A stretch of 64,000 nt of DNA from contig NZ_CP134227.1 in NCBI RefSeq assembly GCF_031656915.1, positions 3,100,001 to 3,164,000 on the forward strand, written 5' to 3'. Position numbers and translations under genes: made by a program. This DNA comes from Nocardioides marmorisolisilvae. Lineage in GTDB: Bacteria; Actinomycetota; Actinomycetes; Propionibacteriales; Nocardioidaceae. Below are positions 4,790 through 64,000 of the stretch, piece by piece. Each line of letters begins with the position of its first letter. Position 1 is the first letter of the stretch. The notes below the pieces were generated by a model that did not search any database, had not been told where the DNA came from, and saw nothing but the letters and a program-made list of their open reading frames with translations.

Positions 4790-4804
4790 TCCGTTCGACC
4801 GAAC

Positions 4805-8054: not shown

Positions 8055-8143
8055 GGTCGTCCTCCCAGGTCGGGAGGAACAACGAGCACACGACCGGCGA
8101 AGTTACTGGGTCGTAGGTTCAGCGGACGAATGCCCGGGCCTGC

Positions 8144-11984: not shown

Positions 11985-12030
11985 GCCGCGAAGCGTAGCC
12001 GTGGCGGACCGGCCGACGGGCCGGCTCGCG

Positions 12031-13179: not shown

Positions 13180-13307
13180 GCCGCGTCCTCCCTGTTGGTC
13201 ATGGCCGCAAGGAGGCTAGGTCGGTCGCTGCTGGCACCGTGGGAGAACGACGAAATCCGGTACTGCGGTCCAGACCGTGACTCGTAAACTCGGGTCCGGG
13301 GCCGTCG

Positions 13308-14513: not shown

Positions 14514-14539
14514 CGTGGGTCCCGCGTCGCCGGCTGGGC

Positions 14540-14565
14540 GATCTCACGTCGGGTGCTGTGAGATC
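14540..14565. promoter_or_regulatory. Inverted repeat between MFS gene and hutH
   Basis: The perfect 8-bp arms GATCTCAC and GTGAGATC are separated by 10 bases. They lie 27 bases from the MFS start and 92 bases from the hutH start. The half-site GTGAGA recurs in the neighbouring site at 14586-14602, so both may be bound by the same regulator. Confidence 0.55.
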
Positions 14566-14585
14566 CCCGACAGCCGCCCATGGCT

Positions 14586-14602
14586 CGTCTCGGATGTGAG
14601 AC
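14586..14602 (+). promoter_or_regulatory. Candidate hut operator, copy 1
   Basis: The 17-bp sequence CGTCTCGGATGTGAGAC contains the inverted repeat GTCTC-N6-GAGAC. An identical 17-mer occurs at 31680-31696. In both places its last base lies 56 bases before the first base of the start codon of the first gene (hutH here, the M20 amidohydrolase there). This makes it a strong candidate operator or activator site for the split hut regulon. Confidence 0.7.
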
Positions 14603-14657
14603 AGCGGCGACGGTGCCGGGGCTGGTGACCATGCGTCTGCACGGCTGGAATGGAGCC

Positions 14658-17619: not shown

Positions 17620-17623
<4 letters not shown>
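16211..17623 (+). CDS. NCS1-family permease (probable histidine/urocanate or related uptake)
   Basis: This 470-residue membrane protein with about 12 segments resembles cytosine/purine/hydantoin permeases: the N-terminal [21 protein letters not shown] and the internal [19 protein letters not shown] are NCS1 hallmarks. Its ATG overlaps the hutH stop, and its own stop overlaps the hutU start, so the three are translationally coupled. Placement between hutH and hutU suggests import of histidine, urocanate or another imidazole compound instead of a nucleobase; this is inferred from context only. Confidence 0.88.
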
Positions 17624-19305
<1,682 letters not shown>

Positions 19306-19319
19306 CCCGGCGGTCCTGG

Positions 19320-20030
19320 TCAGGCCATCGGCGAGGCGAACCAGGCCGTCCGGTGATCCCAGTCGCCCGGCCCGACCCGGGTGCCCGAGCAGACCATGAT
19401 CGCCAACTGCGGCCTGCCGTCGGTGACGTAGTACGCCGGGTAGGGCTGGTCGGCCCAGATGCTCACCTTGCGGGTCACCTGGTAGCACAGGTGGGTGTCC
19501 TTGCCGCGGACGATGATCCGGTCCCCCCGGTGCAGGTGCTCGAGCAGCAGGTTGCCCATCGCGGGCGTGGAGAACCACGGCCACGTGTGCGTGTTGAGGA
19601 TGACGTTGCCCTTCTTGGCGCCCGGCATCGGGCTGGGCTGCTCGTCCCACGCGAACTCGTGCTTGGCCGCATCGGTCAGCGGCAGCGGGCTGGGAATGTT
19701 GTTGGCGTCGCGGGGCAGTGCGATCACGGCCGAGTCGCGGGTGATGCCCGGGATGGTGATGCTGGTCGGCACGAACGGCCCGGCGGCCGGCTGCCCGCAG
19801 AAGTCCGCCCGCAGGGTCTGGCCGGGCAACACCTGCTGCGGCGCGACGTGGGCCAGGCGGTTCCGGGAGGCGTGCGCCGGCTCGGGCTCTGACGACAGTT
19901 GCCAGACCAAGGAGAGTACGGCGATGACCGCGGCCGCGGCTGCGACCGCGGACCAGTTGCGGCGGCCCCATCGAGGCGCGGTGAGCGCCATCGCACGGGA
20001 GCGCAGCGTCGCCCAGACCTGGGGCCTCAT
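19320..20030 (-). CDS. Class F-like sortase
   Basis: This 236-residue protein has one N-terminal membrane anchor (residues about 27-44, VAAAAAVIAVLSLVWQL) followed by a sortase domain. The catalytic residues are visible: His148 in NTHTW, Cys214 in MVCSGTR and Arg227 near the C-terminus. The signature is MVCSG instead of the TLxTC of class A-D enzymes, as seen in actinobacterial class E/F sortases. It would transfer or hydrolyse cell-wall-linked proteins at the membrane surface. Its start overlaps the stop of the DUF1992 gene (ATGA). No obvious LPxTG substrate is encoded nearby. Confidence 0.82.
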   Translation of the reverse strand: MRPQVWATLRSRAMALTAPRWGRRNWSAVAAAAAVIAVLSLVWQLSSEPEPAHASRNRLAHVAPQQVLPGQTLRADFCGQPAAGPFVPTSITIPGITRDSAVIALPRDANNIPSPLPLTDAAKHEFAWDEQPSPMPGAKKGNVILNTHTWPWFSTPAMGNLLLEHLHRGDRIIVRGKDTHLCYQVTRKVSIWADQPYPAYYVTDGRPQLAIMVCSGTRVGPGDWDHRTAWFASPMA

Positions 20031-20521
20031 CGGGTACGTCGCCTTCGCCAGGCAGCGACCTCGGCGTCGACATCACGGGTCCGAGTGATCACCGGCGGTC
20101 CACCGAGGAGCTGCCGACGTGCCTCGATCACCCGTCTGTTGAAGTCCTCGAGCCGGTCGCGGACGACGCGCTCGGACCACTCCTTGTCCAAGCTGGCCTC
20201 GAGTTCGGCGTCCTCCTTGCGCAGCGCCAGGGCCGGTGGGAGCACGCCGGTGATCTGCTCGCGCTCGATGAGCTTCTTCAGCCACCAGTCGGGGTCGTGG
20301 CTGCTGCCGAGATCCTTGATCGGCTTCCCGGCACCGGGCAGGTTGTCGAACTCGCCCTTGGCCATCGCGACCCGGATCTGCTGGTCCACCCAGGAGGTCT
20401 GGTGCTGGATGCGCGCGGCAGCGGCGGAACGGTTCGTCCGGGCGTCGCGGGCGCTGCCCCGGTCCGGTCGTTCCGCGGAGTGCTCGGGCCGTCCCGTCGG
20501 CCTGTCGTCGCTCTCGGGCAC
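20027..20521 (-). CDS. DUF1992 (DnaJ-related) protein
   Basis: This 164-residue soluble protein starts at GTG 20521. The central segment WVDQQIRVAMAKGEFDNLPGAGKPI is the hallmark of DUF1992, a domain linked by name to DnaJ-like proteins but without a J-domain HPD motif here. The N-terminal 40 residues are charged and probably disordered, and the C-terminus is very Arg-rich. It is the first gene of a two-gene unit with the sortase. The role is unknown. Confidence 0.85.
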   Translation of the reverse strand: MPESDDRPTGRPEHSAERPDRGSARDARTNRSAAAARIQHQTSWVDQQIRVAMAKGEFDNLPGAGKPIKDLGSSHDPDWWLKKLIEREQITGVLPPALALRKEDAELEASLDKEWSERVVRDRLEDFNRRVIEARRQLLGGPPVITRTRDVDAEVAAWRRRRTR

Positions 20522-20535
20522 GGCTCTACGGTAAC

Positions 20536-20555
20536 CCGCCGGACGGCACCGGCGG
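20536..20555. terminator. Short GC hairpin between paaE and the DUF1992 gene
   Basis: The 7-bp arms CCGCCGG and CCGGCGG have a 6-base loop and lie 31 bases past the paaE stop and just upstream of the DUF1992 gene. It may terminate the paa operon. No T-run is present. Confidence 0.4.
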
Positions 20556-20585
20556 ATCCGACTTCGTGAACGGGGTGCCCAGCGC

Positions 20586-21668
20586 TCACGCGTCGAAGTC
20601 GACGCAGGCGGAGGCGCTGTCAGGGTAGGACTGACAGGTGAGCACGAACCCCGCCTCGACCTCGGCGTCCTCGAGGGCGTAGTTGCGACGCATGTCCACC
20701 GAACCGGCCGTCACGCGGGCCCGGCAGGTGCCGCAGACGCCGCCCTTGCAGGCGAACGGGAGATCGGCGCGGCTGCGCTGGGCCGAGTCGAGGACGGTCT
20801 CGTCGTACGGCAGCTGGAGCTCGGTACGGCGGCCGTCGAGCACCACCGTGATCGCGGCGGTCGGGCCGGAGACGCCGGGCTCGCGGTGTCGGACCGGCGG
20901 TGGAGCTGCGTCCTCGACGTAGAACAGCTCGGCGTGCACCCGCTCGGCGGGCACGCCGAGCTCGCCGAGCAGCGTGCGGGCGGACACGACCATCTCGTGC
21001 GGTCCGCACAGCCAGAACCCGTCGACGGCAGCGACCGGGACCAGCTCGTCGAGCAGGGTGGCGAGCCGGTCGCGGTCAAGGCGCCCGGTGAACAGCTCGA
21101 CCTCACGTGGCTCGCGGGACAGGACGTGCACCAGCTCGAAGCGCGACCCGTGGGCATCCTTGAGGTCGGCCAGCTCCTCGGCGAACATCACCGAGCTGGC
21201 GTGCCGGTTGCCGTAGAACAACGTCACCTGGGCGTCGCCGGCTCCAAGCAGCGAGCCCGCGATGGAGAGCATCGGGGTGATGCCGGAGCCGGCGGCGATC
21301 AGCACGTGCCGACCGCCCGCCGCGGGGTCGGCGACGAAGCGCCCGGACGGCGGCAGTACCTCGACCGTGTCGCCCGGGCGGACGTCGCGCACCAGCCAGG
21401 ACGACACGACCCCGTCGGCGACCTCCCGCACGCCGACCCGCAGGTCGGGGCCGACGGGGGCGCAGATGGAGTAGGAGCGGCGCTCCTCGCGGCCGTCGAC
21501 CTCTCGCCGCACCGTGATGGACTGGCCGGGCCGGAAGGCGAAGTCGGCCGCCCACTCCTCGGGGACGTCGAAGGTGACTGCCGCGGCGTCGGCGCAGAGC
21601 GGCTCGACCTGGCGCACCCGCAGGGGCGCGAACCCGCGCGCCCGGGTGGTCGGCCTCGTCTCCGCCAT
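20586..21668 (-). CDS. paaE: Phenylacetyl-CoA epoxidase reductase subunit
   Basis: The protein has 360 residues from ATG 21668 (MAETRP). It moves electrons from NAD(P)H through FAD and a 2Fe-2S cluster to the PaaA diiron oxygenase. The N-terminal FAD domain shows RRSYSICAPVG and the NAD domain AAGSGITPMLSI. The C-terminal plant-type ferredoxin has ACKGGVCGTCRARV with Cys at about 307, 312 and 315, and a fourth in LTCQSYP near 345. It is the last gene of the paaABCDE block, one base after the paaD stop. Confidence 0.94.
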   Translation of the reverse strand: MAETRPTTRARGFAPLRVRQVEPLCADAAAVTFDVPEEWAADFAFRPGQSITVRREVDGREERRSYSICAPVGPDLRVGVREVADGVVSSWLVRDVRPGDTVEVLPPSGRFVADPAAGGRHVLIAAGSGITPMLSIAGSLLGAGDAQVTLFYGNRHASSVMFAEELADLKDAHGSRFELVHVLSREPREVELFTGRLDRDRLATLLDELVPVAAVDGFWLCGPHEMVVSARTLLGELGVPAERVHAELFYVEDAAPPPVRHREPGVSGPTAAITVVLDGRRTELQLPYDETVLDSAQRSRADLPFACKGGVCGTCRARVTAGSVDMRRNYALEDAEVEAGFVLTCQSYPDSASACVDFDA

Positions 21669-48045: not shown

Positions 48046-48921
48046 TCAGCCCCCGGTCCGTGCGATGACGTTCTCCGCGAAGGACTCCAGGTGCCGGACC
48101 TTGTCCGCCAGCGGCTCGGTGTCCGGACCCTTGATGTAGGGGACTCGGAAGCCGACGATGCAGTCCGTGACCCCCTTGTCCTCGAGCCGTTTGACCCCGT
48201 CGGGGGAGTAGGCGTCCATCGAGATCACGTGGATCTCGAACGGTCGCGACTCGACGCCCTCCTCGCGACGGATCGTGGCGAGCCGGTCCAGAAGCACGTC
48301 GAGGTCGTCGGGTCCGCCGCCGTGCATCCAGCCGTCGCCCCGGCGTACGGCGCGCCGCAGCGCGGCATCGGAGTGCCCGCCGACCAGGATCGGGACTGGT
48401 TCGGTCGGTGCCGGAGTCTGCTTCATCGCCGGGATGTCGTAGAACTCGCCCTGGTAGGAGAAGTACTCCCCGGTGGTCAGCCCGCGCACGATGTCGATGC
48501 ACTCGTCCATCCGCTTGCCCCGCCGGGCCCACGGCACACCGAGCGCGGTGAAGTCCTCGGGCCACGGTGAGAGCCCGACCCCGAGCCCGAGCCGGTTGCC
48601 CGAGAGCCACGCGATCGAGCCGACCTGCTTGGCGACCAGCACCGGCGGCCGCACCGGCAGCTTGAGCACGAACGGGGTGAACCGCAGGGTCTCCGTCACC
48701 GCAGCGAGGTGGGTGACCAGGGTGAGGGCCTCGATGAACGGCTTGTCCTCGAGGAACTCCCGGTCGCCGGTCTCGGTGTAGGGGTAGGAGGTGTCGGACT
48801 CACGCGGATAGATCAGCGAGTCCGCGATCGTCATCGAGGTGTAGCCCGCCGCCTCGGCGGCCTGGGCCAGGGGTGCGTAGTACGCAGCGTCGGTCATGGC
48901 CTCCGCATAGGTGAACCGCAT
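48046..48921 (-). CDS. LLM-class F420-dependent oxidoreductase
   Basis: The protein has 291 residues. The luciferase-like TIM barrel is shown by MRFTYAEAMTDAAYYAPLAQAAEAAGYTSMTIADS, GNRLGLGVGLSPWPEDF and PVPILVGGHSDAALRRAVRRGDGW. These are typical of actinobacterial enzymes that use the deazaflavin F420. It heads the operon LLM-DUF1214-hydrolase and starts 21 bases from the KstR-like site that it shares with the divergent SnoaL-like gene. Confidence 0.92.
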   Translation of the reverse strand: MRFTYAEAMTDAAYYAPLAQAAEAAGYTSMTIADSLIYPRESDTSYPYTETGDREFLEDKPFIEALTLVTHLAAVTETLRFTPFVLKLPVRPPVLVAKQVGSIAWLSGNRLGLGVGLSPWPEDFTALGVPWARRGKRMDECIDIVRGLTTGEYFSYQGEFYDIPAMKQTPAPTEPVPILVGGHSDAALRRAVRRGDGWMHGGGPDDLDVLLDRLATIRREEGVESRPFEIHVISMDAYSPDGVKRLEDKGVTDCIVGFRVPYIKGPDTEPLADKVRHLESFAENVIARTGG

Positions 48922-51122: not shown

Positions 51123-53975
51123 ATGATGAACAACGGACGCCGCCGCGGCACCGCTCGGACGACGACACGCAAGGCACTCATCGGGGCCGGCCTCGCCGGC
51201 GCCATGGTCGCCGCGGGTGTCGTGGTCACCCAGGCAGCAGCCGACTCACCACCGCAGCGCGTGCTGCAGTCGGTCAACGTCGACCTGGGCACGGACGGCA
51301 CGCTCTACGGCATCACCGGGGTCGACGTCGCCAAGGTGGACGGCAGCGAGCCGACCACGAAGGACGCGACCTACGACCCGTCGAAGACCGCGTCACAGCT
51401 GCCTGTCCGGGTGCTCACCTCCTACCACGCCGGCGACCGGACGGGCACGAACCTGGCCGACCTCAAGGACTACAAGGGCCCGGTGCGCATCGATGTCACG
51501 GTGCAGAACACCACCATGCGCCCCGAGCGTCTGACCTACGACGTCAACGGCGCGAGCCAGCACGCCTACGCCCTCGTCGGAGTGCCGATGACGGTCGTCG
51601 CCTCGGCGAACCTCGGCAAGGACAACGTCGGCAAGATCGTCACCCACTCCGACGACGGTGGTCAGGTCACCAATGGGGTGCTCAGCCAGGACCGCTCCGG
51701 CAACGCCCAGGTGCAATGGGCCGCCCTGCTGGCCCCGCCGCAGCTCGCGCCCAGCACGACCTTCACGCTGGTCGAGAACGCCACCAAGTTCCAGATGCCC
51801 GACCTCGACATCAGCGTCCAGCCGGGTCTGTCCGCCGACACCTCGATCCGGTCGCTGATGCAGGCCGCGTTCAGCGAGGACGGCTCCAGCCAGCTGAAGC
51901 TCGAGACCCAGACCATCAACCTCGTCGGTCAGGTCACCCAGGTGCTCGCCGCGGCGGGCCACCAACTCGGCGAGGTGCAGCGCCAGCTGCACTACTCCGC
52001 CGGCACGCTCGGCAGCCGCACCATCGGCGACCTGACGTCGGGCACCCAGACCGTGGCATCGTCCACCAAGGCGCTGGCCGGCCAGCTCAAGGCGCTCCAG
52101 ACCAGCCTCGGAGACGCGCTCAAGGGCACCCAACAGACCGCGGTCAGCCAACTGCAGGCCAGCGTCGACAAGGTCGGCAAGCTGCTCGGGAACACCTCGG
52201 CCCAACCTGCGACCGCCCGCCTCTCGGGGCCCGGCTGCGCCGCGCGGGTGCAGGCCACCAAGGGCGACCACACCGTCTACGGCCAGCTGAACCGGATGAT
52301 CAGCCTGCTCAAGGGCCTCTCGGGCGCCACCGGTGGCTGCAGCGGCGCGATCCAGGCCGCGCTGCTCAAGACCGTCGGCACCGTCGACGCCCGCGGCAAC
52401 GCGGTGTGCCCGACCGGGAGCACCAGTGCCATCTGCGCGATCAACGGCGCGGCCAGCAAGCTCGACGGACTGGTCTCGGGGTTGGGCACCAACCTCACCA
52501 CCGCGCAGACGACGCTGACCGGTCTGCCGGTCGCTGACGCCGTCAGCGTGCTCACCGACCTCGGGACCGCGGTCACCACGCTGCAGACCGACGCGAAGGC
52601 GGCGCTGGACAAGAAGAACCAGACGAACGGCAAGTCCAACCTGTTCTTCGTCGAGATGCAGCTCGACAACCAGCTGACAGCCCTGCAGGGCCTGATCAGT
52701 GGCAGCCCGCTGCAGGCGAGCACCCTGGGCCAGCACGGCGACCTGATGACGGCGCTCGACGCCATCAAGACGACCGCCCAGGCCAACGCCTCCGCGATCG
52801 GCACGGCCGGCACCACCGGCAAGGCGACCTCCCAGGACGAGGTCACCGCCCTCCAGCAGCAGGTCTGTGCCCTGGCCGCGGAGCAGGACGCCAACGGTGA
52901 CCCGCTCGTCGACTATGACAAGGACATCAAGCCGCTGCTGCAGCTGACCAACGGTCACGCCTGCAACGCGGCGGATCCCGCGCCGGGTGGTCCGAACGAC
53001 TTCGGCGGGAAGTCGCTGGCCGACCAGTTCACCGCCCAGGCCGCCGCATGGAGCGGCATCGCCACCAAGGTCGACACCGCAGAGACCGCGGTCAGCGACC
53101 TGTCCACGAAGCTGCAGGACGTCCATGACCGGCTCGACACGTTGATCGGCGACCTCGACAGCTCGGGCTCGAACGTCGGAGGCAGCCTCAAGGGCATCCT
53201 CGACACGATCAACGGTCTCTACGACCCGGTATCGATCGACTGCAGCACCGACCCGAGCAGGTTGACCGACGACCTGGCCAAGGCGATCGCCTCGGTGAAG
53301 CAGATCCAGTGCCAGACCAACGGCGTGAACACCAAGCTGAGCACCGACTTCAGCGGCTTCGAGAAGAACGTCCAGACCTACCAGTCAGACGTGCACAAGC
53401 AGCTGGCAGTGGTCAACGACCAGCGCGTCTACAGCGACGACCAGATCAGCCGGCTGTTCGCTGCGGCCAGCGGGGGGCTGGACACCGCTGCGGGCACCAT
53501 CCGTGCGGAGGGCAAGGCCTCGGTCGACCGCCAGAACGCCCGGCTGAAGAAGGAGTCCGTCGCGTTCGCCAAGACGCTGCAGAGCTCGGTCACGGGTGCG
53601 CTCAAGCAGATCGACTCGAGTGTGAACGCCTCCAACCGCGACCTGGCCTCCTCGGAGAAGCTGCTCAGAGGCGACCTGCGCAACGTGCTCGCCGACCTCG
53701 GCAGCCGCACCCGCGCGGGCAGCGGCCTGCTCGGCATCATGCAGGCCCAGGCCGCCCAGACGCGTACGTCGGCAGCTCGGCTCGGCCAGGCCGGCGCGCA
53801 GGCCAGTCAGTTCGGCAACGTGCGTGGCGCGGACCTGGGTGGCATCTTCCTGCAGCAGGCCCAGCTCCAGCGAGCCCTCGCGCTGCAGGCGAAGCTCCCG
53901 GCGTTCGCGACCACGCTGCCCGCGGGCAGCCAGCACGTCACCGTGTTCTCCTTCCACATGAGAGGCGTCCAGTGA
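51123..53975 (+). CDS. Large exported helical (coiled-coil-rich) protein of the T7SS-like locus
   Basis: The protein has 950 residues. The start is ATG 51123 or 51126, with GAGGA directly upstream. A signal or anchor segment (about 18-40, KALIGAGLAGAMVAAGVVVT) is followed by a beta-rich domain to about residue 240. Long Ala/Leu/Gln helical stretches then follow, including LSTKLQDVHDRLDTLIGDL and many TLQ/ALQ repeats. Eight Cys in the exported part could form disulfides. No C-terminal membrane segment is seen. The shape recalls the extracellular coiled-coil part of EsaA/YueB-type proteins, but no homology can be claimed. It is first in the operon. Confidence 0.75.
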   Translation: MMNNGRRRGTARTTTRKALIGAGLAGAMVAAGVVVTQAAADSPPQRVLQSVNVDLGTDGTLYGITGVDVAKVDGSEPTTKDATYDPSKTASQLPVRVLTSYHAGDRTGTNLADLKDYKGPVRIDVTVQNTTMRPERLTYDVNGASQHAYALVGVPMTVVASANLGKDNVGKIVTHSDDGGQVTNGVLSQDRSGNAQVQWAALLAPPQLAPSTTFTLVENATKFQMPDLDISVQPGLSADTSIRSLMQAAFSEDGSSQLKLETQTINLVGQVTQVLAAAGHQLGEVQRQLHYSAGTLGSRTIGDLTSGTQTVASSTKALAGQLKALQTSLGDALKGTQQTAVSQLQASVDKVGKLLGNTSAQPATARLSGPGCAARVQATKGDHTVYGQLNRMISLLKGLSGATGGCSGAIQAALLKTVGTVDARGNAVCPTGSTSAICAINGAASKLDGLVSGLGTNLTTAQTTLTGLPVADAVSVLTDLGTAVTTLQTDAKAALDKKNQTNGKSNLFFVEMQLDNQLTALQGLISGSPLQASTLGQHGDLMTALDAIKTTAQANASAIGTAGTTGKATSQDEVTALQQQVCALAAEQDANGDPLVDYDKDIKPLLQLTNGHACNAADPAPGGPNDFGGKSLADQFTAQAAAWSGIATKVDTAETAVSDLSTKLQDVHDRLDTLIGDLDSSGSNVGGSLKGILDTINGLYDPVSIDCSTDPSRLTDDLAKAIASVKQIQCQTNGVNTKLSTDFSGFEKNVQTYQSDVHKQLAVVNDQRVYSDDQISRLFAAASGGLDTAAGTIRAEGKASVDRQNARLKKESVAFAKTLQSSVTGALKQIDSSVNASNRDLASSEKLLRGDLRNVLADLGSRTRAGSGLLGIMQAQAAQTRTSAARLGQAGAQASQFGNVRGADLGGIFLQQAQLQRALALQAKLPAFATTLPAGSQHVTVFSFHMRGVQ

Positions 53976-55231
53976 ACCGAGTCCTCGGTGCGGCCGCCCT
54001 GGCCGCAGCACTGGTGCTGCTCAGCGGCTGCGGATCGAGCAGCGGCGATCCGGTCCAGCCGACCGACGTCACGCTCGGCAGCCACCAGATACCCGACGAC
54101 GTGCAGATCGGCCTGATCGTCACGCTGAAGTCCGCGCCCGGTCAGGGCGCCGAGTGGCTCAGCAGCGCAGCCGGCACCGAGGTGGCGACGTACCAGTACC
54201 ACCTCGGCGGTCACCGGGTGACGCTCGACGTCGTCGACGACAAGGGCACCCGTTCCGGTGCGCGCAAGGCGGTGCAGACGCTGGTCGGTGAGGGTGTCAG
54301 CGGCATCGTCGCGGCCACCTCCGGTCAGCACCTGGTGGGGTCCCTCGACCAGGCGGCCGAGTCCGGCACCGCCGTGCTGCTGCCCTATCAGAGCAACCCG
54401 GCGGGCCTGCAGCGCAACGAGTGGCTGACCGGGCCCACCTCGACCCAGCTCGGCGCCACGATGGCCACGATGATCGCCGACAACGGTTGGCAGCACCCCC
54501 TGTTGGTGACCTCTGCCGGCCAGCGCGTCGACGGCCTGCCGAACGCGACAGTTCTCAAGGTCTCCTCGCACGCCCAGCCGGCCGCGGTGTTCCGCAAGAT
54601 CCGAGCCGCCCGCACGTCCGAGGGCGTCGACATCGTGGTGCTCGCCGTCCCCGCCGACCTCCAGGCCGGGGTGGTGAAGGCGGTGCAGAGCGCCAAGCGC
54701 GACATCCCGATCCTGCTCGGCCGAGACGCGGTCAGCCCCACCTTCGCCGACACCCTGGTCAAGCTGGGTGGCAGCCTGGCGGGCCAGTTCACCACGGCCG
54801 GGCTGGACGCCGGCGACGTGACCGCGGTCGGCGCCGGTGCCTCCGGCGACCGCGCGGCGTCGTTCTTCTCGGCGCTCGGGCTCGCCTCGAGCGACGCGAA
54901 CACCAAGGACCTGTTCGGGCAGGGGCCGTTCAGCGCCCAGGCCGGCTCCGCCGACATCGCGAGCCACGACGCCGTGGTGGCCCTCGTCGCCGCCGCCACC
55001 CAGGCCGGCAGCGCCGCCCCCGGCAAGGTGCTCGCCACTCTCGGCAAGCTCAGGGTCACCGGCAGCGCCGGGCTGGCCGGACCAGACCTCGACTTCACCC
55101 GCCAGAGCGCCGTCGCCGACTCCGACGTGCTCCCCATGCACGCCACCATGCAGGACCCCGGCGTCCGGCCCCCAGGTCTCGGCGACCCGACGCAGTTGTT
55201 CTGGTTCGCAGTGCCCGGTCCGCAGAGCTGA
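53972..55231 (+). CDS. Periplasmic-binding-protein-like lipoprotein
   Basis: This 419-residue protein starts at GTG 53972, which overlaps the stop of the preceding gene. The lipobox LVLLSGCGSS puts the lipid on Cys20. The mature part resembles type 1 periplasmic binding proteins (branched-chain amino-acid SBP family): VQIGLIVTLKSAPGQGAEW, the ligand-lobe DDKGTRSGARKAVQTLVGEGVSGIVA and DIVVLAVPADLQAGVVKAVQSAKRDIPIL. No ABC permease or ATPase genes are nearby. The gene lies between a large exported protein and a sensor-type kinase, which suggests ligand sensing rather than import. Confidence 0.78.
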   Translation: MNRVLGAAALAAALVLLSGCGSSSGDPVQPTDVTLGSHQIPDDVQIGLIVTLKSAPGQGAEWLSSAAGTEVATYQYHLGGHRVTLDVVDDKGTRSGARKAVQTLVGEGVSGIVAATSGQHLVGSLDQAAESGTAVLLPYQSNPAGLQRNEWLTGPTSTQLGATMATMIADNGWQHPLLVTSAGQRVDGLPNATVLKVSSHAQPAAVFRKIRAARTSEGVDIVVLAVPADLQAGVVKAVQSAKRDIPILLGRDAVSPTFADTLVKLGGSLAGQFTTAGLDAGDVTAVGAGASGDRAASFFSALGLASSDANTKDLFGQGPFSAQAGSADIASHDAVVALVAAATQAGSAAPGKVLATLGKLRVTGSAGLAGPDLDFTRQSAVADSDVLPMHATMQDPGVRPPGLGDPTQLFWFAVPGPQS

Positions 55232-55234
55232 GCC

Positions 55235-57271
55235 ATGGACGTGACCAGCCGCGCGCTCGGGAGCAACTACCGGCTCGTGTCCCGGATCGGCACCGGCGCG
55301 ATGGGCGAGGTCTGGCGCGCCGAGGACATCGGCGCGGGCACCGACGTGGCGGCCAAGGTGCTGCGCAGCGAGTTCAGCCACAACCCGGAGATCGTCTCCC
55401 GTTTCGTCCAGGAGCGCTCCATCCTGATGGGACTCGACCATCCCGCGATCGTCCGGGTGCGCGATCTGGTCGTCGAGCGCGACCGGCTGGCGATCATCAT
55501 GGACCTGGTCGACGGGTCGGACCTGCGCGCCGCCCTCCGCGAGGCCGGCACCCTGCCGCCCGCACTCGCCGCGCGGGTGGTGGCCCGGGTGCTCGAGGGC
55601 CTCGCAGCGGCGCACTCCCAGGGTGCGCTGCACCGTGACGTCAAGCCCGACAACGTGTTGCTCACCCACGACTGGACGCAACTGCGCCCGGACGCGATCC
55701 GGATCTCCGACTTCGGCATCGCCCGGCTCGCCCAGGACTCCACCGTCCAGGCGACCGGCCTGCTCGGCACACCGGAGTACATGCCGCCCGAGCTCTTCGA
55801 GCACGGAACGTCGAGCGCCGCGTCCGACGTGTACGCCGCCGGCGTGGTGCTCTACGAGCTGCTCGCCGGCCGCACGCCGTACGCCGGCAGCGGCACGGCG
55901 TACACGATCGGCAACCGCGCGGTCACGATGGAGCCGCCCCGGCTCGACCTGCCGGAGTCGCTGCAGCAGCTGCTGGCCAGCCTGCTCGCGAAGGATCCGC
56001 GGCGTCGCCTCAAGGCCGGAACCGCTGCCGAGACCCTCGTCGCGCTCGCCGACGACCTGGCCGGGGTCGACGCGCTGCCCGTGCAGCCCATCCCGACCAG
56101 CTGGGTGCGCACCCGTTCGTCCGACCTCGCGCACGGCACGATCCGGCCGGCGAGTGCGCCGGCGAGCTTCGACGTCGGTGGCACGAACCTCGACGTCACC
56201 TTCGCGCCGGAGACGCAGGCCGCGCAGGCCGGCGGCGAGGTCCGCGCGCTGGTCCCGGGAGCCGGTCCCGACCTGGAGGCAGGCGTCACCAACGTGGGCG
56301 CCGTGCCTGCCACCTATCACCCACCCGTGCTCGAGCCGGCGGTCCAGAAGCACGCCGATCGGCCAGAGCGGTCACGGGTTCGCCGCTGGCTGCTGCCCGG
56401 CACGATCGTCGTCGTCGTGCTCTGCGTCGTCGGCGGCTTCCTGCTGCTTCGTGGCCACGGCAGCGCCGACGACAAGCACGCCGCGATGACGACCGCCGTG
56501 TCGGCGCATCAGCAGGACGACAAGGTCCGCGGCACCGGCCTGCAGGTCAGCCGGGAGGCCAGCTACGACCCGGAGCACCACGAGGTCGAGCTGACCGTCA
56601 ACCTCACCGCCGACCGGGTCCCGCTCAAGGGCCCGTTCCTCCAGGTGCTGCCGATGCCCGCGGGAAGCACCGAGTGCCCACTGCCGGTCTGGTCGGGAGC
56701 AGACAGCCAGCCGAACAACCCGCAGATCACCGGGATCACCGCGCCGTGCGGCTCTGTGCTGACGGTGCCGACCGTCCCGGCCAACGGCACCCGCACGGTC
56801 ACCGCGAAGATCGCCATGGATCTGACCGGCTCCGACCCACAGCAGCAGCTGGCCAGCTGGCTGGACCGGACCGGGTCCCTCACGTCCTCCGCACTGAGTG
56901 ACACCGGCAAGAACGACACCTGGTTCGCCAGCCAGCGCCTCCAGGACATCGAGGTGGTCGCGCCCGCTGCGGTGTCGGTGCACGCCCGCCAGCTGCGGGT
57001 GGTGCTCTACCCGGTCTGGCCGACCGGCGTCGACCGGATCCACCCGATGTTCAACAGCGCGATCGGGCGGTCCTCGCAACTGCTCGACCAGGCGGCAGGC
57101 GGCCTGCGCAACCTCAGCCTCTTCGACCGCTGCCACACGGCTGTGTCGGTCAACCGCGACCGCAGCATCTCGGTGCTGCACCAGACCGACCGCTGCACGA
57201 TCGTGGTCAACGTCGGTAACCTCACCGGGCTGACCAGCACGCCCTTCCAGATCACCGACGCCGGCAGCTAG
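55235..57271 (+). CDS. Transmembrane Ser/Thr protein kinase
   Basis: The protein has 678 residues. The N-terminal Hanks-type kinase has the Gly loop GTGAMGEVW, the ATP Lys41 in VAAKVL, the catalytic HRDVKPDN (Asp135), DFG (Asp159) and GTPEYMPPE, so it should be active. A membrane segment at about 388-408 (LLPGTIVVVVLCVVGGFLLL) leads to a beta-rich extracellular domain of about 260 residues with two or three Cys. Kinase inside and sensor outside is the PknB-like plan. It lies three bases after the lipoprotein gene and 13 before the FHA-FtsK gene, whose FHA domain is a plausible phosphothreonine reader. Confidence 0.92.
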   Translation: MDVTSRALGSNYRLVSRIGTGAMGEVWRAEDIGAGTDVAAKVLRSEFSHNPEIVSRFVQERSILMGLDHPAIVRVRDLVVERDRLAIIMDLVDGSDLRAALREAGTLPPALAARVVARVLEGLAAAHSQGALHRDVKPDNVLLTHDWTQLRPDAIRISDFGIARLAQDSTVQATGLLGTPEYMPPELFEHGTSSAASDVYAAGVVLYELLAGRTPYAGSGTAYTIGNRAVTMEPPRLDLPESLQQLLASLLAKDPRRRLKAGTAAETLVALADDLAGVDALPVQPIPTSWVRTRSSDLAHGTIRPASAPASFDVGGTNLDVTFAPETQAAQAGGEVRALVPGAGPDLEAGVTNVGAVPATYHPPVLEPAVQKHADRPERSRVRRWLLPGTIVVVVLCVVGGFLLLRGHGSADDKHAAMTTAVSAHQQDDKVRGTGLQVSREASYDPEHHEVELTVNLTADRVPLKGPFLQVLPMPAGSTECPLPVWSGADSQPNNPQITGITAPCGSVLTVPTVPANGTRTVTAKIAMDLTGSDPQQQLASWLDRTGSLTSSALSDTGKNDTWFASQRLQDIEVVAPAAVSVHARQLRVVLYPVWPTGVDRIHPMFNSAIGRSSQLLDQAAGGLRNLSLFDRCHTAVSVNRDRSISVLHQTDRCTIVVNVGNLTGLTSTPFQITDAGS

Positions 57272-57284
57272 GGGGTGTCCGCCC

Positions 57285-60200
57285 GTGCGCATCTCGCTCA
57301 CTGTCGAGACCGCTGAGCAGTCCGCCGACGTCCTGGTCGACTGCGACGACCAGACCACCGCGGCCGACCTCGCCGACGCCCTGTCGGGTGCGGTCGGTGC
57401 CTCGGGTGCCGAGCTCGTGGTGGGTGAGGACCCGGCCACTCCGTCCGCCCGGGTGGCCGAGCTCGGACTGCTCGACGGGCACCGGGTCGGGCTGGGCCAC
57501 AAGGTCGAACCGCCACCGGGAGTCGAGACCAGAGGCTGGCAGCTGCACGTCGTCTCCGGGCCCGATGCGGGGGCGGTGTTCGCCCTCCCCGTCGGCGACC
57601 ACGACGTCGGCCGCAGCGGTGTGGTGTCCTTCCTCGACCACGCGATGTCACGCCGACACTGCCGGATCACGGTGAGCACGAACGGCGCCACGATCACCGA
57701 CCTGGGCTCGAGCAACGGCACCCGCCTCGACGGCGCCCTGCTGGAGGCGCAGCGGCCGCACCCCGTCGAGCTGGGCCAGATGATCGGCATCGGGCACTCG
57801 GTCGTGACGCTGCGACCCGCCCGAGCCACCGACGCGGTGATCGAGGCGGCCGAGCCCGGGCACGCGCACTTCCTCCGTCAGCCGCGGATGCTGCCGCCAC
57901 GCACCACCCTCGAGGTGAAGGTGCCGGCGGCACCAGGGGACAAGCCGCGCCGTCGGATCCCGATGGTCGCGATGCTGATCCCACTGGCGATGGGGGTCCT
58001 GATGGCGTGGCTGATGAGCTCGCCGACGTACCTGCTCTTCGCGCTGATGAGCCCCGCGATGATGATCGGCAATCTCGTCTCCGACATGCGCGGCGGGGCC
58101 AAGGACCATCGCGCCCGGGTGGAGAAGTACCACCGTGACCTCGAGGCCAGCCAGCAGCAGCTGGCCGCAGCCGTGCACACCGAGCAGAACCGGTTGCGCT
58201 CAGAGCTTCCGGACGCTGCCGACACCTTCCTGACCTGCGTGCTGCCCGGACGCAGGCTCTGGGAACGCCGCCCCTACGACGTGGACGCGCTCACCCTGCG
58301 GGTCGGCACCGCCGACCTGCCCTCGACCGTGCAGCTCGTCGGCGGCACCTTCGACACCCAGGTCGACCAGTCCGAGCACCGTCTGCACTGCGTCCCGGTC
58401 GCCGTCGACCTCAAGAGGGCCGGCGTCATCGGCGTCGCCGCGCCGCACGACACGGTGGTATCCACGCTGCGCTGGTTGACTGTCCAGCTGTGCGCCTTCC
58501 ACCCGACGCGCGACCTGGCCGTCACGGTGCTGACCAGCCGCGCCGAGGACCACTGGCGCTGGGTGCGCTGGCTGCCGCACCTGCGGCCGGGCACGGTCGA
58601 GGGCAGCACGGCGTACGTCGGCAACGACCCGGACTCGGTCTCGGCCCAGGTCTCCGCCCTGATCGGCCTGCTCACTGCCCGCAAGCAGGCGATGCAGGGG
58701 GGCCACGGGGTCAAGGCGGACAGCTTCCCCGCGCACGTGCTGGTGGTGCACGGCTACCGTCAGGTGCGCACCACGCTCGGGCTGGCACAGCTCCTCGACG
58801 AGGGGCCGAGCGTCGGGATCTACGCGATCTGTGCCGATGAGGACGAGCGGCTGCTCCCGGAGCGGTGCACCTCCACCATCGTCGCGGACCCGACCCGCCC
58901 CGACTTCGGAACCCTCCGGCGCACCGGCGAGTCCGACGTGGTCGACGTCCTGCTCGAAGGGGTGGCGGCCCCCTGGTGCGAGCGGGTCGCCCGGTCCCTG
59001 GCGCCCCTGGTGGATGTCGGGGCCGACCAGGGCGAGACCATGCTTCCCGACAGCGCCCGACTGCTCGAGGTCGTCGGCTTCGATCCGCCGCAGGCCGGGG
59101 CGATCCGCGCCCGGTGGGCGCTGGAGCCGCGGAGCACCGCGATGACGATCGGGGTCGGCCTCGACGGACCCTTCACCTTGGACCTGCGCCGCGACGGTCC
59201 GCACGGACTGATCGCGGGAACGACCGGCTCGGGGAAGACCGAGCTGCTCCAGACGATGATCGCCTCGCTGGCCCTGGTGAACCGTCCCGACGAGCTCAAC
59301 TTCGTGCTCGTCGACTACAAGGGCGACAGCGCGTTCAAGGACTGCGTCAACCTCCCCCACACGGTCGGCAAGGTCAACGACCTCGACCCGCACCTGGTCG
59401 AGCGCGCGCTGGAGTCGCTGTCCGCCGAGTTGCGCTACCGCGAACACTTCTTCGCCGAGGCGCAGGTCAAGGACATCGAGGACTACCAGCTGCTGCAGTC
59501 CAAGGAGCCGCACCGTCCGTCGCTGCCGCGACTGTTGCTGGTGATCGACGAGTTCGCCGCGCTGTTCAAGGAGCTGCCGGACTTCGTCTCCGGCCTGGTC
59601 GGCATCGCCCAGCGCGGCCGCTCGCTCGGCATCCACCTGCTGCTGGCCACCCAGCGGCCATCCGGGGTGGTGAGCCCGGAGATCCGCGCGAACACCAACC
59701 TCCGGGTCTCACTGCGCGTCACCGACGCCGCGGACAGCGTCGACATCCTGGAGAGCCCCGACGCGGCCAGCATCGCCAAGAGCTCACCGGGTCGTGGGTT
59801 CGCCCGTCTGGGCGCCGGCAACCTGCTCTCCTTCCAGTCCGGACGTGTCGGCGGCCGGCGTCCGGGCGCGGTCCTCGACGAGGTGCCCCCGCCGTTCGTC
59901 GCGGCGGTGCCGTGGAAGGCGCTGGGCTACCAGCAGCCGCAGCCCCCGGCCGCGGTCGCCCGCGACGACGTCAAGGACACCGATCTCGCCTCGCTGGTCG
60001 AGGCGGTGCGCGCCGCGGCCGTCGAGGACGGCGTACCCGCGCAGCGTCAGCCGTGGCTGCCGGCCCTGCCCGAGAAGCTCACCATGGCGGAGGTGTACGA
60101 CGACCTGCCGGCCGCCACGCTCGCCGTCCCGCCGCTGCCCTTCGGTCGCAGCGACCTCCCCCAACTGCAGGAGCAGCAGCCGGCGACCTTCGACCTCGTC

Positions 60201-61631
60201 CGTGACGGCCACCTGCTGGTGATCGGCTCGGCTCGCAGCGGACGCTCCCAGCTGCTGCGCACCCTCGCCGGTGCGATCGCCCGGCTCACCTCACCTCGCG
60301 ACGTGCACCTCTACGGCATCGACTGCGGCAACGGCGCGCTGAACCCGTTCACCAGCCTGCCGCACTGCGGGGCCGTGGTGGGTCGCACCGAGCCGGAGCG
60401 GGCTGGCCGGCTCCTCGGGCGGATCGGCGCCGAGATGGATCGGCGGCAGATGCTGCTGGCGCAACACGGCTTCGCCGACATCGAGGAGCAGCGTCGGTCG
60501 CCGGAGTCCTCGCTGCCGCACCTCGTGGTGATGATCGACCGGTGGGAGGGCTTCACCACCTCGCTGGCCGACATCGACAACGGCGCGATGGCCGACATGG
60601 TCACCCGGATCCTGCGCGAGGGCGCCAGCCTCGGCGTCCACCTGGTCATCAGTGGCGACCGGACCCTCGCCGGCAACCAGATCGCGTCGATGACCGAGCA
60701 CAAGTTCGCGATGCGGCTCGCCGACAAGGGCGACTTCTCGCTCATCGGCCTGTCGCCGCGCTCGCTCCCCGACCGGATGCCGCCCGGGCGCGGGTTCACC
60801 CCGGCCGGGATCGAGGGCCAGGTGCTGCTGCTGGACGAGGACGAGTCCGGCCAGGCACAGGCGGCCGCGTTGGTCAGGCTCGGCGAGGCGGCTCATGCTC
60901 GAGGCGAGCTGGCGGAGGTGGCCGACCCGGCCCAGCGGCCGTTCCGGCTCGACGTGCTCCCCAGCCGGATCACCCTGGAGGAGGCGCTCGCGCTGCGTCC
61001 AGCCGACGCCGCGCCGACCCTGCTGCCGCTCGCGGTGGGCGGTGACGAGCTCACCGCGATGGGCCCGGACCTCGCCACGAGCCCGAGCTTCCTGGTCGCC
61101 GGACCGCACCGCTCCGGGCGCAGCACGACCCTGCTCGCCGCCGTGCACGCCGCCGTGAGCTTCGGTGTGCAGGTGGTCGTCGCCGCCCCGCGACCCAGCC
61201 CGCTCCGCGACCTCGCCGGCACGGCCGGCGTGCTGCAGGTGTTCACCGACGACGAGCCCGAGGCCACCTACCGCGAGCTGGTGGCCAGCGTCCCGGGGCC
61301 GGTGCTGCTGGTGCTCGACGACGCCGAGGAGCTCAAGGACGCGCGCGCGGAGGACTACTTCGCCGAGATCGTCCGCGGCAACGCCGAGGGGCAGGTCGCG
61401 CTGCTCTTCGGCGGTGCGGCGGACGCCCTCCAGCTCGGCTTCAGCGGCTGGCACGTCGAGGCGCGCAAGGCCCGACGCGGACTGCTGCTGTCGCCGCAGG
61501 AGAGCGGCGACGGCGACCTGGTCGGGCTGCGGCTCCCGCGCAGCGCGGTGGGCCAGCCGGTCCAGCCGGGCCGCGGGCTGCTGCACCTGGGCGACGGGCA
61601 GCTGGTGCGGGTCGCCACCGTGCTTCCCTGA
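57285..61631 (+). CDS. EssC/EccC-type FtsK-SpoIIIE ATPase with FHA domain
   Basis: This 1448-residue protein starts at GTG 57285. The first about 80 residues may be a ubiquitin-like or degenerate FHA fold. A canonical FHA domain follows (VGRSG, SRRHC, DLGSSNGTRLDG, about 85-180), then two membrane segments at about 226-265. The first ATPase module is complete: AGTTGSGKTELLQ (Lys651) and LLLVIDEFAAL. Two further modules have degenerate P-loops, GSARSGRSQLL near 979 and AGPHRSGRSTTLL near 1271. This is the layout of type VII secretion EssC/EccC motors. It is last in the operon and convergent with the WXG100-like gene. Confidence 0.9.
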   Translation: MRISLTVETAEQSADVLVDCDDQTTAADLADALSGAVGASGAELVVGEDPATPSARVAELGLLDGHRVGLGHKVEPPPGVETRGWQLHVVSGPDAGAVFALPVGDHDVGRSGVVSFLDHAMSRRHCRITVSTNGATITDLGSSNGTRLDGALLEAQRPHPVELGQMIGIGHSVVTLRPARATDAVIEAAEPGHAHFLRQPRMLPPRTTLEVKVPAAPGDKPRRRIPMVAMLIPLAMGVLMAWLMSSPTYLLFALMSPAMMIGNLVSDMRGGAKDHRARVEKYHRDLEASQQQLAAAVHTEQNRLRSELPDAADTFLTCVLPGRRLWERRPYDVDALTLRVGTADLPSTVQLVGGTFDTQVDQSEHRLHCVPVAVDLKRAGVIGVAAPHDTVVSTLRWLTVQLCAFHPTRDLAVTVLTSRAEDHWRWVRWLPHLRPGTVEGSTAYVGNDPDSVSAQVSALIGLLTARKQAMQGGHGVKADSFPAHVLVVHGYRQVRTTLGLAQLLDEGPSVGIYAICADEDERLLPERCTSTIVADPTRPDFGTLRRTGESDVVDVLLEGVAAPWCERVARSLAPLVDVGADQGETMLPDSARLLEVVGFDPPQAGAIRARWALEPRSTAMTIGVGLDGPFTLDLRRDGPHGLIAGTTGSGKTELLQTMIASLALVNRPDELNFVLVDYKGDSAFKDCVNLPHTVGKVNDLDPHLVERALESLSAELRYREHFFAEAQVKDIEDYQLLQSKEPHRPSLPRLLLVIDEFAALFKELPDFVSGLVGIAQRGRSLGIHLLLATQRPSGVVSPEIRANTNLRVSLRVTDAADSVDILESPDAASIAKSSPGRGFARLGAGNLLSFQSGRVGGRRPGAVLDEVPPPFVAAVPWKALGYQQPQPPAAVARDDVKDTDLASLVEAVRAAAVEDGVPAQRQPWLPALPEKLTMAEVYDDLPAATLAVPPLPFGRSDLPQLQEQQPATFDLVRDGHLLVIGSARSGRSQLLRTLAGAIARLTSPRDVHLYGIDCGNGALNPFTSLPHCGAVVGRTEPERAGRLLGRIGAEMDRRQMLLAQHGFADIEEQRRSPESSLPHLVVMIDRWEGFTTSLADIDNGAMADMVTRILREGASLGVHLVISGDRTLAGNQIASMTEHKFAMRLADKGDFSLIGLSPRSLPDRMPPGRGFTPAGIEGQVLLLDEDESGQAQAAALVRLGEAAHARGELAEVADPAQRPFRLDVLPSRITLEEALALRPADAAPTLLPLAVGGDELTAMGPDLATSPSFLVAGPHRSGRSTTLLAAVHAAVSFGVQVVVAAPRPSPLRDLAGTAGVLQVFTDDEPEATYRELVASVPGPVLLVLDDAEELKDARAEDYFAEIVRGNAEGQVALLFGGAADALQLGFSGWHVEARKARRGLLLSPQESGDGDLVGLRLPRSAVGQPVQPGRGLLHLGDGQLVRVATVLP

Positions 61632-61660
61632 GCCGCCGCGGGCACCCTCGACCATGCAGG

Positions 61661-61696
61661 AAGGCCGCCCCTCCCCGGGCGGGGAACGGCGGCCTT
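61661..61696. terminator. Bidirectional hairpin between EssC-like and WXG100-like genes
   Basis: The perfect 9-bp arms AAGGCCGCC and GGCGGCCTT enclose an 18-base loop that can itself pair (CCCC/GGGG). It lies 30 bases past the ATPase stop and 16 past the WXG100 stop, so it could terminate both convergent genes. Confidence 0.8.
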
Positions 61697-61712
61697 CGAC
61701 GGGCGCGTGGGC

Positions 61713-62009
61713 TCAGCTGTGCATCGCCTTGGCGAGCTCCTCGTCAGCGTGCTGGAAGGTCTCGGCGGCCTTGCTGAGGTACTGCGCCATGCCGTGCAGG
61801 CCCTCGATGGTCTTCTGGGTGCCCTTCGTGAACTCGTCGTACGACGCACCGAACGCACCCGAGGCCTTGTCGGTCTTGAAGTCCGTCTCGATGAGCTGGC
61901 GGATCTGGCCGTGGAGGGCCTGCAGCTGCTGCTCGATGTCGGTCTTCGCGTTGTTGAGCTTGGTCGCCTGGTCCCGCATCTGCTGGTAGGTGACGTTCAC
62001 GTTTGCCAC
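61713..62009 (-). CDS. WXG100-superfamily protein (ESAT-6-like)
   Basis: The protein has 98 residues from GTG 62009, with AAGGGGG upstream. It has the length and two-helix hairpin plan of WXG100 secretion substrates. The Trp-x-Gly at the turn is replaced by TDFKTDKASGAFGASYDEF, a variant I recall from actinobacterial WXG100 proteins. The C-terminal helix ends FQHADEELAKAMHS, close to the Y-x3-D/E export signal (here F-x3-D). It is convergent with the FHA-FtsK gene and probably the substrate or assembly factor of that motor. Confidence 0.88.
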   Translation of the reverse strand: MANVNVTYQQMRDQATKLNNAKTDIEQQLQALHGQIRQLIETDFKTDKASGAFGASYDEFTKGTQKTIEGLHGMAQYLSKAAETFQHADEELAKAMHS

Positions 62010-62174: not shown

Positions 62175-63017
62175 TCAGCCGAGCCAGTCCATGGTGTCCG
62201 GGTGGGGCCCCTGCCGGCCGTCCTCGCCGCGGTCGAGGCCATCGATCGCGGCCATATCCTCGTCGCTGAGCTCGAAGCCGAAGACGTCGAAGTTCTCCCG
62301 CATCCGCTCGGTGTGGGTGGTCTTGGGGAAGACGACGTCGCCGCGTTGGAGCGCCCAGCGCAAGGCGACCTGGGCCGGTGTCTGCCCGAGCCGCTCGGCG
62401 ATGCCGACGATGACCGGGTCATCGCCGACCTTGCCCTGGGCGATCGGTGCCCAGGCCTCGGTCACGATGCCTGCCGCCCGGTTCGCCTCGCGCACGGCCG
62501 CGTTGCCGAAGAAGGGGTGCACCTCGACCTGGTTCACCGCGGGAACGCCCTCGGTCTGCGCCGCGAGCCGCTCCAGGTGGGCGGGTTGGAAGTTGGATAC
62601 CCCGATGGAGCGTGCCCGGCCGTCGCGCTGGAACTCGACGAGGGTCTCCCAGGTCGAGACGAAGTCGCCGCCGTACTGCGTGGGCAGCGGCCAGTGGATC
62701 AAGAACAGGTCCACGTGGTCGGTGCCGAGCCGGGTCAGCGTCTCGTCGAAGGCGCGTCGGGCGTCGTCGGGGCGGTGGAAGCCGTTGTTGAGCTTGCTGG
62801 TGACGAAGACGTCGTCTCGCGCGAGCCCCGAGGCGGCGATGGCCTCGCCGACGCCGGCCTCGTTGCGGTACATCTGAGCCGTGTCGATGTGGCGGTAGCC
62901 GACCTCCAGTGCTCGCGAGACCACGTCGGCGGTCTCTGCGGGCGGCACCTGGAAGACGCCGAAGCCGAGCTGGGGGATGGTGTTGCCGTCGTTGAGGGTC
63001 ACGTTGGGAACAGTCAT
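62175..63017 (-). CDS. Aldo/keto reductase
   Basis: The protein has 280 residues from ATG 63017; ATG 63026 is an alternative. The tetrad residues are visible: Asp and Tyr in GYRHIDTAQMYRNE, Lys in VFVTSKL and His in LFLIHWP. The C-terminal FPKTTHTERMRENFDVF binds NADPH. It is a generic carbonyl reductase, similar to 2,5-diketogluconate reductase-type enzymes; the substrate is unknown. It is divergent from dnaK and has no operon partner. Confidence 0.93.
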   Translation of the reverse strand: MTVPNVTLNDGNTIPQLGFGVFQVPPAETADVVSRALEVGYRHIDTAQMYRNEAGVGEAIAASGLARDDVFVTSKLNNGFHRPDDARRAFDETLTRLGTDHVDLFLIHWPLPTQYGGDFVSTWETLVEFQRDGRARSIGVSNFQPAHLERLAAQTEGVPAVNQVEVHPFFGNAAVREANRAAGIVTEAWAPIAQGKVGDDPVIVGIAERLGQTPAQVALRWALQRGDVVFPKTTHTERMRENFDVFGFELSDEDMAAIDGLDRGEDGRQGPHPDTMDWLG

Positions 63018-63113
63018 GAACCGCATGACAAGCGGCGGGCCCGAGGTATTCCGACGTCCCGCGGCCGTACGGGAACAATCCCCGAGCAGGCTGCGTTGGC
63101 ACCCATGATGAGA

Positions 63114-63134
63114 CTTGAGTTGTAATGACTCAAC
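63114..63134 (+). promoter_or_regulatory. HAIR-type HspR operator before dnaK
   Basis: CTTGAGT-N7-ACTCAAC matches the HAIR consensus CTTGAGT-N7-ACTCAAG except for the last base. It lies 88 bases before the dnaK ATG. HspR with DnaK represses such promoters in actinobacteria until heat stress. TTGACA at 63139-63144 may be a -35 box just downstream of the site. Confidence 0.85.
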
Positions 63135-63222
63135 TTGTTTGACACACTCCGGGCAGCGTGAGCACAGTGCCCGGAGAGGGACCCGAGAAACCTGTGCACC
63201 AAGAGCGAAGGTAGGAAACACC

Positions 63223-64000
63223 ATGGCACGAGCGGTCGGTATCGACCTCGGCACGACCAACTCCGTCGTCGCCGTCCTTGAGGGTGGGGAACCCACCGTC
63301 ATCGCCAACGCGGAGGGGGCCCGGACGACACCGTCCGTCGTCGCCTTCTCGAAGTCCGGAGAGGTCCTCGTCGGTGAGGTCGCCAAGCGGCAGGCCGTCA
63401 CCAACATCGACCGGACGATCCGGTCGGTCAAGCGCCACATGGGCACCGACTGGAAGACCGAGATCGACGGCAAGGACTTCAACGCCCAGCAGATCAGCGC
63501 GTTCGTGCTGCAGAAGCTCAAGCGCGACGCCGAGGCCTACCTCGGCGAGACCGTCACCGATGCAGTGATCACGGTGCCGGCGTACTTCTCCGACGCCCAG
63601 CGCCAGGCCACCAAGGAGGCCGGTGAGATCGCCGGGCTGACCGTGAGCCGCATCGTCAACGAGCCGACCGCGGCCGCGCTGGCCTACGGGCTGGACAAGG
63701 GCGAGTCCGATCAGACCATCCTGGTCTTCGACCTGGGCGGTGGCACCTTCGACGTCTCCCTGCTGGAGATCGGCGAGGGCGTCGTCGAGGTGAAGGCGAC
63801 CAGCGGCGACAACCTGCTCGGCGGCGACGACTGGGACGCCCGGATCGTCGAGTGGATGGTCAAGAAGTTCAAGGACAGCAACGGCGTCGACCTCGGACAG
63901 GACAAGATCGCGCTGCAGCGCCTCCAAGAGGCCGCGGAGAAGGCGAAGATCGAGCTGTCCAGCTCCAGCGAGACGACGGTGCACCTGCCCTACATCACCC
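63223..64000 (+). CDS. dnaK: Hsp70 chaperone DnaK, N-terminal part (runs off the window)
   Basis: The first 259 codons are visible and the gene continues past the window. ATG 63223 follows GGTAGGAAA. The ATPase-domain motifs are intact: [18 protein letters not shown] (phosphate 1), [31 protein letters not shown] (connect) and [17 protein letters not shown] (phosphate 2). The HAIR operator 88 bases upstream implies HspR control, with grpE, dnaJ and hspR expected downstream outside the window. Confidence 0.97.

Follow-up and report, generated by a model that had tools for sequence, protein, structure and literature searches.

A putative type VII secretion subtype of actinobacteria, probably gated by a kinase and an FHA domain, in Nocardioides marmorisolisilvae

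We describe here a putative type VII secretion locus of Nocardioides marmorisolisilvae, contained in a stretch of 64,000 nucleotides (the window: positions 3,100,001 to 3,164,000 of contig NZ_CP134227.1, assembly GCF_031656915.1) of a genome that consists of a single contig of 4,228,226 bases. The locus comprises five genes, labelled A to E, which encode an exported protein (A), a lipoprotein (B), a transmembrane Ser/Thr kinase (C), an EssC-like motor (D) and a WXG100-family protein (E) (Table 1). The first four are tightly packed on the same strand, with the start codon of B overlapping the stop of A (GTGA) and gaps of only 3 bases between B and C and 13 bases between C and D, so we take them to form one operon; E opposes D and lies 81 bases past its end. 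A preliminary description of the window had proposed precisely this arrangement, an operon followed by a convergent WXG100 gene, and it holds: all five reading frames are present where that description placed them, and profile scans place C, D and E in families above cut-off.

Table 1. Features of the locus and of the stretches compared with it (window positions unless another locus is named)
Feature	Positions	Strand	Description
A	51123..53975	+	Exported protein, 950 residues; no Pfam family above cut-off
B	53972..55231	+	Lipoprotein of the type-1 periplasmic-binding-protein family (ANF_receptor match slightly short of its cut-off); GTG start
C	55235..57271	+	Ser/Thr kinase domain (residues 12-264) and a membrane helix (~384-405)
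X, outer domain of C	56477..57268	+	Beta-rich, with conserved cysteines
D	57285..61631	+	EssC-like motor, 1448 residues
Ubiquitin-like (beta-grasp) domain of D	57285..57530	+	Profile match to ubiquitin-fold PDB chains
FHA domain of D	57549..57818	+	R110, S122, N144
E	61713..62009	-	WXG100-family protein, convergent with D
L152, T7SSd-like by layout alone	247-13113		Kinase, small membrane protein, 1798-residue exported protein, motor, FHA protein, small protein
L200 (this genome)	7766-16276		Very large Rhs-repeat frame; no match to lineage II N-terminal profile
L201 (this genome)	4211-12391		Very large Rhs-repeat frame; no match to lineage II N-terminal profile
L202 (Rothia terrae)	3169-20710		Complete lineage II set on plasmid p2
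L203 (Streptomyces atratus plasmid)	4152-15134		Motor with WXG100 protein and 'putative T7SS-secreted protein'

The motor D matches FtsK_SpoIIIE (208 bits) and FHA (38.9 bits), as well as the YukB and EccC chains of the PDB. Over residues 195-1287 it scores 558 bits against the EssC model TIGR03928, below the cut-off of 778.4, and the EccC models score lower on it (395 bits for EccCa, 312 bits for EccCb). Three ATPase modules had been proposed for this protein, and three FtsK-type modules are indeed found, but only the first has the canonical Walker A lysine (GTTGSGKT), the other two reading GSARSGRS and GPHRSGRS. A profile of the N-terminus of D retrieves ubiquitin-fold chains from the PDB (best E 1.8e-5). 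The ubiquitin-like profile used for the comparison of motors, which was built without the T7SSd-like locus L152, matches 47/47 motors from loci with A and B (A-B motors), 20 of which also served as rows of the profile, and 30/37 other motors, 8 of which did, together with 0/8 EccC proteins and no shuffled control at E 10. As for E, it matches WXG100 (62.8 bits) and TIGR03930 (48.2 bits) over both cut-offs and is convergent as first described, but it lacks a literal W-x-G.

The kinase C scores 173.7 bits against Pkinase, and its predicted model (mean predicted local distance difference test score, pLDDT, 82) shows the kinase joined by a linker, modelled with low confidence, to a membrane helix, beyond which lies the beta-rich outer domain X. 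The catalytic residues K41, D135, N140 and D159 are invariant in all 32 aligned sequences. The FHA residues named in Table 1 are those that bind phosphothreonine; they are intact in 47/47 A-B motors versus 19/37 other motors. When all 84 motors are considered, with the window entered by hand as kinase-bearing, an intact FHA occurs in 45 of the 48 with an active-looking kinase in the locus and in 21 of the 36 without (p 1e-4, the rows being related to one another). Domain X was found in A-bearing loci or genomes, and the 37 further motor loci examined for comparison are without it.

The N-terminus of A resembles a signal peptide. Its predicted model (mean pLDDT 73; predicted template modelling score 0.40) shows a confident N-terminal beta domain (residues ~44-233), a long helical region that includes a helix of 119 residues (716-834) and a C-terminal strand (936-945). 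In the fold comparison, residues ~40 to 947 of A align with single beta domains, a pattern that would fit a long helical insert in the N-terminal domain, with the C-terminal strand completing that domain. Given these long helices A could span the cell wall, and we put the chance that it is the wall-spanning part at about even. The source names of its homologues mislead, P0023 and P0024 being called 'molybdopterin converting factor small subunit' and 'trimeric autotransporter adhesin'. B bears the lipobox LLSGC and reaches 24.1 bits against ANF_receptor, for which the cut-off is 25.4; from this family, a role as ligand sensor can be suggested only tentatively.

At the level of the genome, the EccB profile had 0 matches, whereas the same model was positive in 81/246 genomes from this class, one of the same genus among these, and in 0/14 named control genomes. 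The absence of EccB, EccD, EccE and mycosin from the window, noted in the preliminary description, can be extended to the whole genome for EccB, the one of the four at which a genome search was aimed. The EssC model has two matches in this genome, D and a protein that is presumably the DNA translocase FtsK, and the WXG100 profile has a single one at E <= 0.001, namely E, beside the motor. In two other genomes of the phylum (G284 and G207; loci L101 and L102) EssC motors score over the Bacillota-type cut-off, which could reflect transfer or contamination.

How widespread is this gene set? A search with A recovered 127 proteins, A included, from 8000 candidates scored, and a scan of 84,980 species genomes with the A alignment, limited to three peptide patterns, gave 53 loci. 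The distribution of A is patchy: it occurs in 7/98 relatives, this genome counted, in 2 of the 24 genomes of the same genus and, among the matches listed with at most three candidates scored per genome, in 1/246 genomes of the class, which is this one. With four loci from relatives and one (L168) found through the motor search, the scan yields a table of 58 A loci, from which L013 and L014, duplicates of L030 and L070, were left out. B is present in 57 of the 58, an X-bearing kinase in 47 and the motor in 49, that is, in 49/53 loci not cut near A. Eleven loci are without a kinase, of which 4 lie on short contigs, and the remaining 7/7 genomes hold an X domain elsewhere; nine are without a motor, 5 of them truncated by contig ends and 4 with ample room. 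A, B, C and D stand together in loci of Nocardioides, Blastococcus, Arthrobacter, Cellulomonas, Schaalia and others, so the neighbours do co-occur, in loci from several actinobacterial families. In the window the flanks are ordinary, with a luciferase-like monooxygenase and an aldo/keto reductase at 48046-48921 and 62175-63521.

The motors of these loci fall into separate lineages. Trees were made of 92 motors and, with more care, of 26 motors (480 columns); the motor tree and the FHA count omit motors of 1150 residues or less (such as L020, L040 and L068) and L153, a near copy of L152. Lineage I contains the motors of the window, Nocardioides, Aeromicrobium and Blastococcus; lineage II those of Microlunatus, Arthrobacter, Propionibacterium, Schaalia canis and others; and lineage III those of Cellulomonas, Pauljensenia and Schaalia georgiae, and also L160, in whose surrounding stretch, as far as compared, neither A nor B occurs. 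The label II is the default for loci whose motor is unplaced (for example L039, L042, L047 and L067), and one of these, L042, groups with lineage I in the A tree; L064 and L068 were assigned to III by hand, from A, B and C. On the careful tree, the presence of A and B requires four changes, and a single clade of A-B motors is rejected (p-AU, from the approximately unbiased test, 1.3e-47). The trees of A, B and C (FastTree, midpoint root, compared informally) each separate most of II from I and III, with III nested within I in the B tree. Broadly, then, A, B and C keep together while the motor changes, and the A-B-kinase module is the most constant part of the system. Within the genus of the window one genome (G014) has lineage II and the window lineage I, which is most simply explained by exchange or horizontal transfer.

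In lineage II a small WXG100-like protein, which has a literal W-D-G where its members were inspected, lies near 20 of the 34 loci, and Rhs profiles built from lineage II loci themselves match 18/34 loci (N-terminal profile) and 15/34 (core profile); RHS repeats and DUF6531 were found in 4/4 of the Rhs proteins scanned. An E-like WXG100 protein is present in 5/6 lineage III and 6/14 lineage I loci, the window apart. On the 53.8 kb plasmid p2 of Rothia terrae (NZ_CP062961.1, L202) the kinase, A, B, motor, small protein and Rhs genes occur together; the small WXG100-like protein is annotated there as 'pyrophosphorylase', and A was also matched on another Rothia terrae plasmid. The motor of the Streptomyces atratus plasmid stretch L203 is 44% identical to D, and no kinase is among the annotated features of that stretch.

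Garrett, Higginson and Palmer 2024 (PMC11217815) name the subtypes T7SSc to T7SSj of the type VII secretion system (T7SS). In the parts of that paper drawn on here, T7SSd is actinobacterial and encodes TsdH and TsdI, the latter a 1654-residue immunoglobulin-like protein with a C-terminal membrane helix, and a ubiquitin-like protein was not found in it; the words lipoprotein, Nocardioides, Arthrobacter and Cutibacterium are missing from its main text. The locus described here resembles the T7SSd depicted there in its occurrence in Actinomycetota, its single WXG100 protein, its FHA-EssC motor, its transmembrane Ser/Thr kinase and its large exported protein, and an Rhs protein adjoins one T7SSd example in that paper. 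C shares with TsdD the layout of kinase plus membrane helix, the likeness being one of layout and kinase domain. However, the two differ in content: (i) as far as that account goes, T7SSd has TsdH and TsdI, whereas the present locus has A and B, the X domain and a ubiquitin-like domain that is fused to the motor; (ii) no frame in the window exceeds 1448 residues, A having 950, mostly helical and ending in a strand; and (iii) the profiles of A, B and X have no match in the stretch of L152, whose motor has an FHA without the binding residues and a start that weakly resembles a ubiquitin-like domain (E 0.0014), although T7SSd is said to have none. As to TsdH, a small protein with a single membrane helix, the A-D operon leaves no space for a further gene, and a counterpart could only lie elsewhere. 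Because T7SSd has TsdH and TsdI, and L152 is without matches to A, B and X, we file the locus as a type VII variant outside T7SSd.

With T7SSb (EssA, EssB, EssC, EsaA, EsaB, EsxA) the locus shares an EssC-like motor, a ubiquitin-like part, WXG100 and a kinase-fold membrane protein, but D falls under the EssC cut-off, its ubiquitin-like domain is fused to the motor, the kinase of C looks active whereas EssB is a pseudokinase, and D has one FHA with conserved binding residues where EssC, in the same parts of PMC11217815, has two without them. A search that covered the five locus proteins found no EssA, EsaA or EssB family among them, and no EsaA was among the matches listed in the fold comparison of A, which excludes nothing. 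The motor superfamily and WXG100 are common to T7SSa/ESX (EccB, EccC, EccD, MycP), from which the locus differs in that the genome is without EccB and D carries FHA and ubiquitin-like domains. In type VI secretion, control by threonine phosphorylation involves a kinase plus an FHA protein. Here too a membrane kinase is paired with an FHA domain through which export could be turned on, but the export machinery is unrelated and the FHA lies within the motor; such control in Agrobacterium is mentioned in PMC11217815.

In our reading, to which we give a probability of about 0.64, the locus represents a type VII secretion subtype distinct from T7SSd and probably gated by kinase and FHA. It very probably secretes proteins, and gating of export through the kinase and the FHA is plausible enough for us to lean towards it. 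D would act as the membrane motor for the export of E, and its counterparts in relatives probably export Rhs proteins too. A, B and C would form a conserved envelope module in which A, once exported, could reach through the cell wall, B, anchored outside, may bind a ligand, and C would span the membrane with its active-looking kinase inside and X outside. Most likely, a cue from outside, received through B, A or X, would activate the kinase; a threonine would then be phosphorylated and bound by the FHA of the motor, and export would be switched on. The preliminary description had suggested that kinase and lipoprotein replace EssB and EsaA. What survives of this is a type VII-like system without EccB that has its own kinase with conserved catalytic residues. 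For an EsaA-like role A is a better candidate than the lipoprotein, although the comparisons made did not link A to EsaA. C, despite an EssB-like layout, has a seemingly intact active site and an outer domain predicted to be beta-rich; its replacement of EssB is an analogy. The subtype looks undescribed in the literature searched, most subscription journals and supplements being outside its scope.

Several observations weigh against this reading. The lipobox of B, found by a simple pattern in 8/10 sequences of lineage I, 2/3 of lineage III and 3/3 of the motorless loci, is present in just 5 of 21 sequences of lineage II, several of which start with a segment like a membrane helix instead. Five small proteins of lineage II were scanned, of which 3 match WXG100 below the cut-off and 2 not at all, and the first ~280 residues of the lineage II Rhs proteins match no Pfam family, WXG and LXG included. 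The Rhs profiles match 0/14 loci of lineage I, so that no toxin substrate is evident for the lineage of the window, and neither of the Rhs proteins L200 and L201 of this genome has the N-terminus of the lineage II type. Among motors outside A-B loci, a kinase in the locus shows no link to an intact FHA (6/9 vs 13/28, p 0.45), and no phosphatase family appeared when representatives were scanned from 15 clusters of neighbours that recur, 4 of which gave no Pfam match at all. Finally, L026, L028, L050 and L055 have A, B and C and room for D, yet are without it, and in two genomes with motorless loci the motor read is of the EccC type (L174, L175).

These motorless loci are also what would be expected if A, B and C were an envelope-sensing unit in their own right that simply often lies next to type VII motors, and the kinase outside the A-B locus in seven genomes and the persistence of A-B-C across differing motor lineages point the same way. 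We nevertheless consider this unlikely. A motor adjoins A and B in nearly all loci not cut near A, in separate lineages and on a plasmid as well, and the conservation of the FHA residues tracks the A-B-C module. In Nocardioides-type genomes the motorless loci adjoin housekeeping genes (prs, rplY or pth), and members of this set also flank the motor-bearing L018, L020 and L038; this recurrent chromosomal spot makes a later loss of D plausible. The other two genomes with motorless loci have a ubiquitin-FHA motor elsewhere (L176, L177), and that of L050 also has an EccC-type motor (L172).

It is similarly improbable that the locus is simply a T7SSd in which A stands for TsdI and B for TsdH. WXG100, the FHA-EssC motor and the membrane kinase are common to both, and the motor of L152 branches with the lineage of the window (support 86/88); but the two remaining lineages of A-B motors are distant from L152 in the tree, A is unrelated by profile to the TsdI-like protein of L152 (hhalign probability 1.8, a weak comparison with a single-sequence template) and has no C-terminal membrane helix of the kind described for TsdI in the account cited above, and A, B and X go unmatched in L152. 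That D is an orphan EccC or FtsK-type motor with unrelated neighbours we regard as highly improbable. Such motors are widespread, and in a sample of 39 loci chosen by motor (20 + 19, picked from higher-scoring matches) A and B are present in only one, L168. However, the EssC model fits D better than EccC does, and the conservation of the neighbourhood over several families already speaks against it; the preliminary description had tied this reading to eccB, eccD or mycP elsewhere in the genome or to neighbours that do not co-occur, and the search, aimed at EccB only, found no eccB, while the neighbours do co-occur.

The subtype, if it is one, adds to the type VII family of non-mycobacterial actinobacteria a patchily distributed member that is plasmid-borne in one case and that, in one of its lineages, adjoins Rhs genes. 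With kinase, FHA motor and candidate sensor in one operon, the locus allows a direct test of whether type VII secretion is controlled by phosphorylation, as has been suspected. The occurrence of a constant surface module with differing motors bears on the classification of secretion subtypes. It is quite possible, though we would not yet favour it, that A, B and C make up a mobile unit, complete in itself, for sensing and gating, which is plugged into interchangeable type VII motors and gives each a phosphorylation switch; if so, what stays stable in the evolution of the secretion system would be its control unit rather than its motor.

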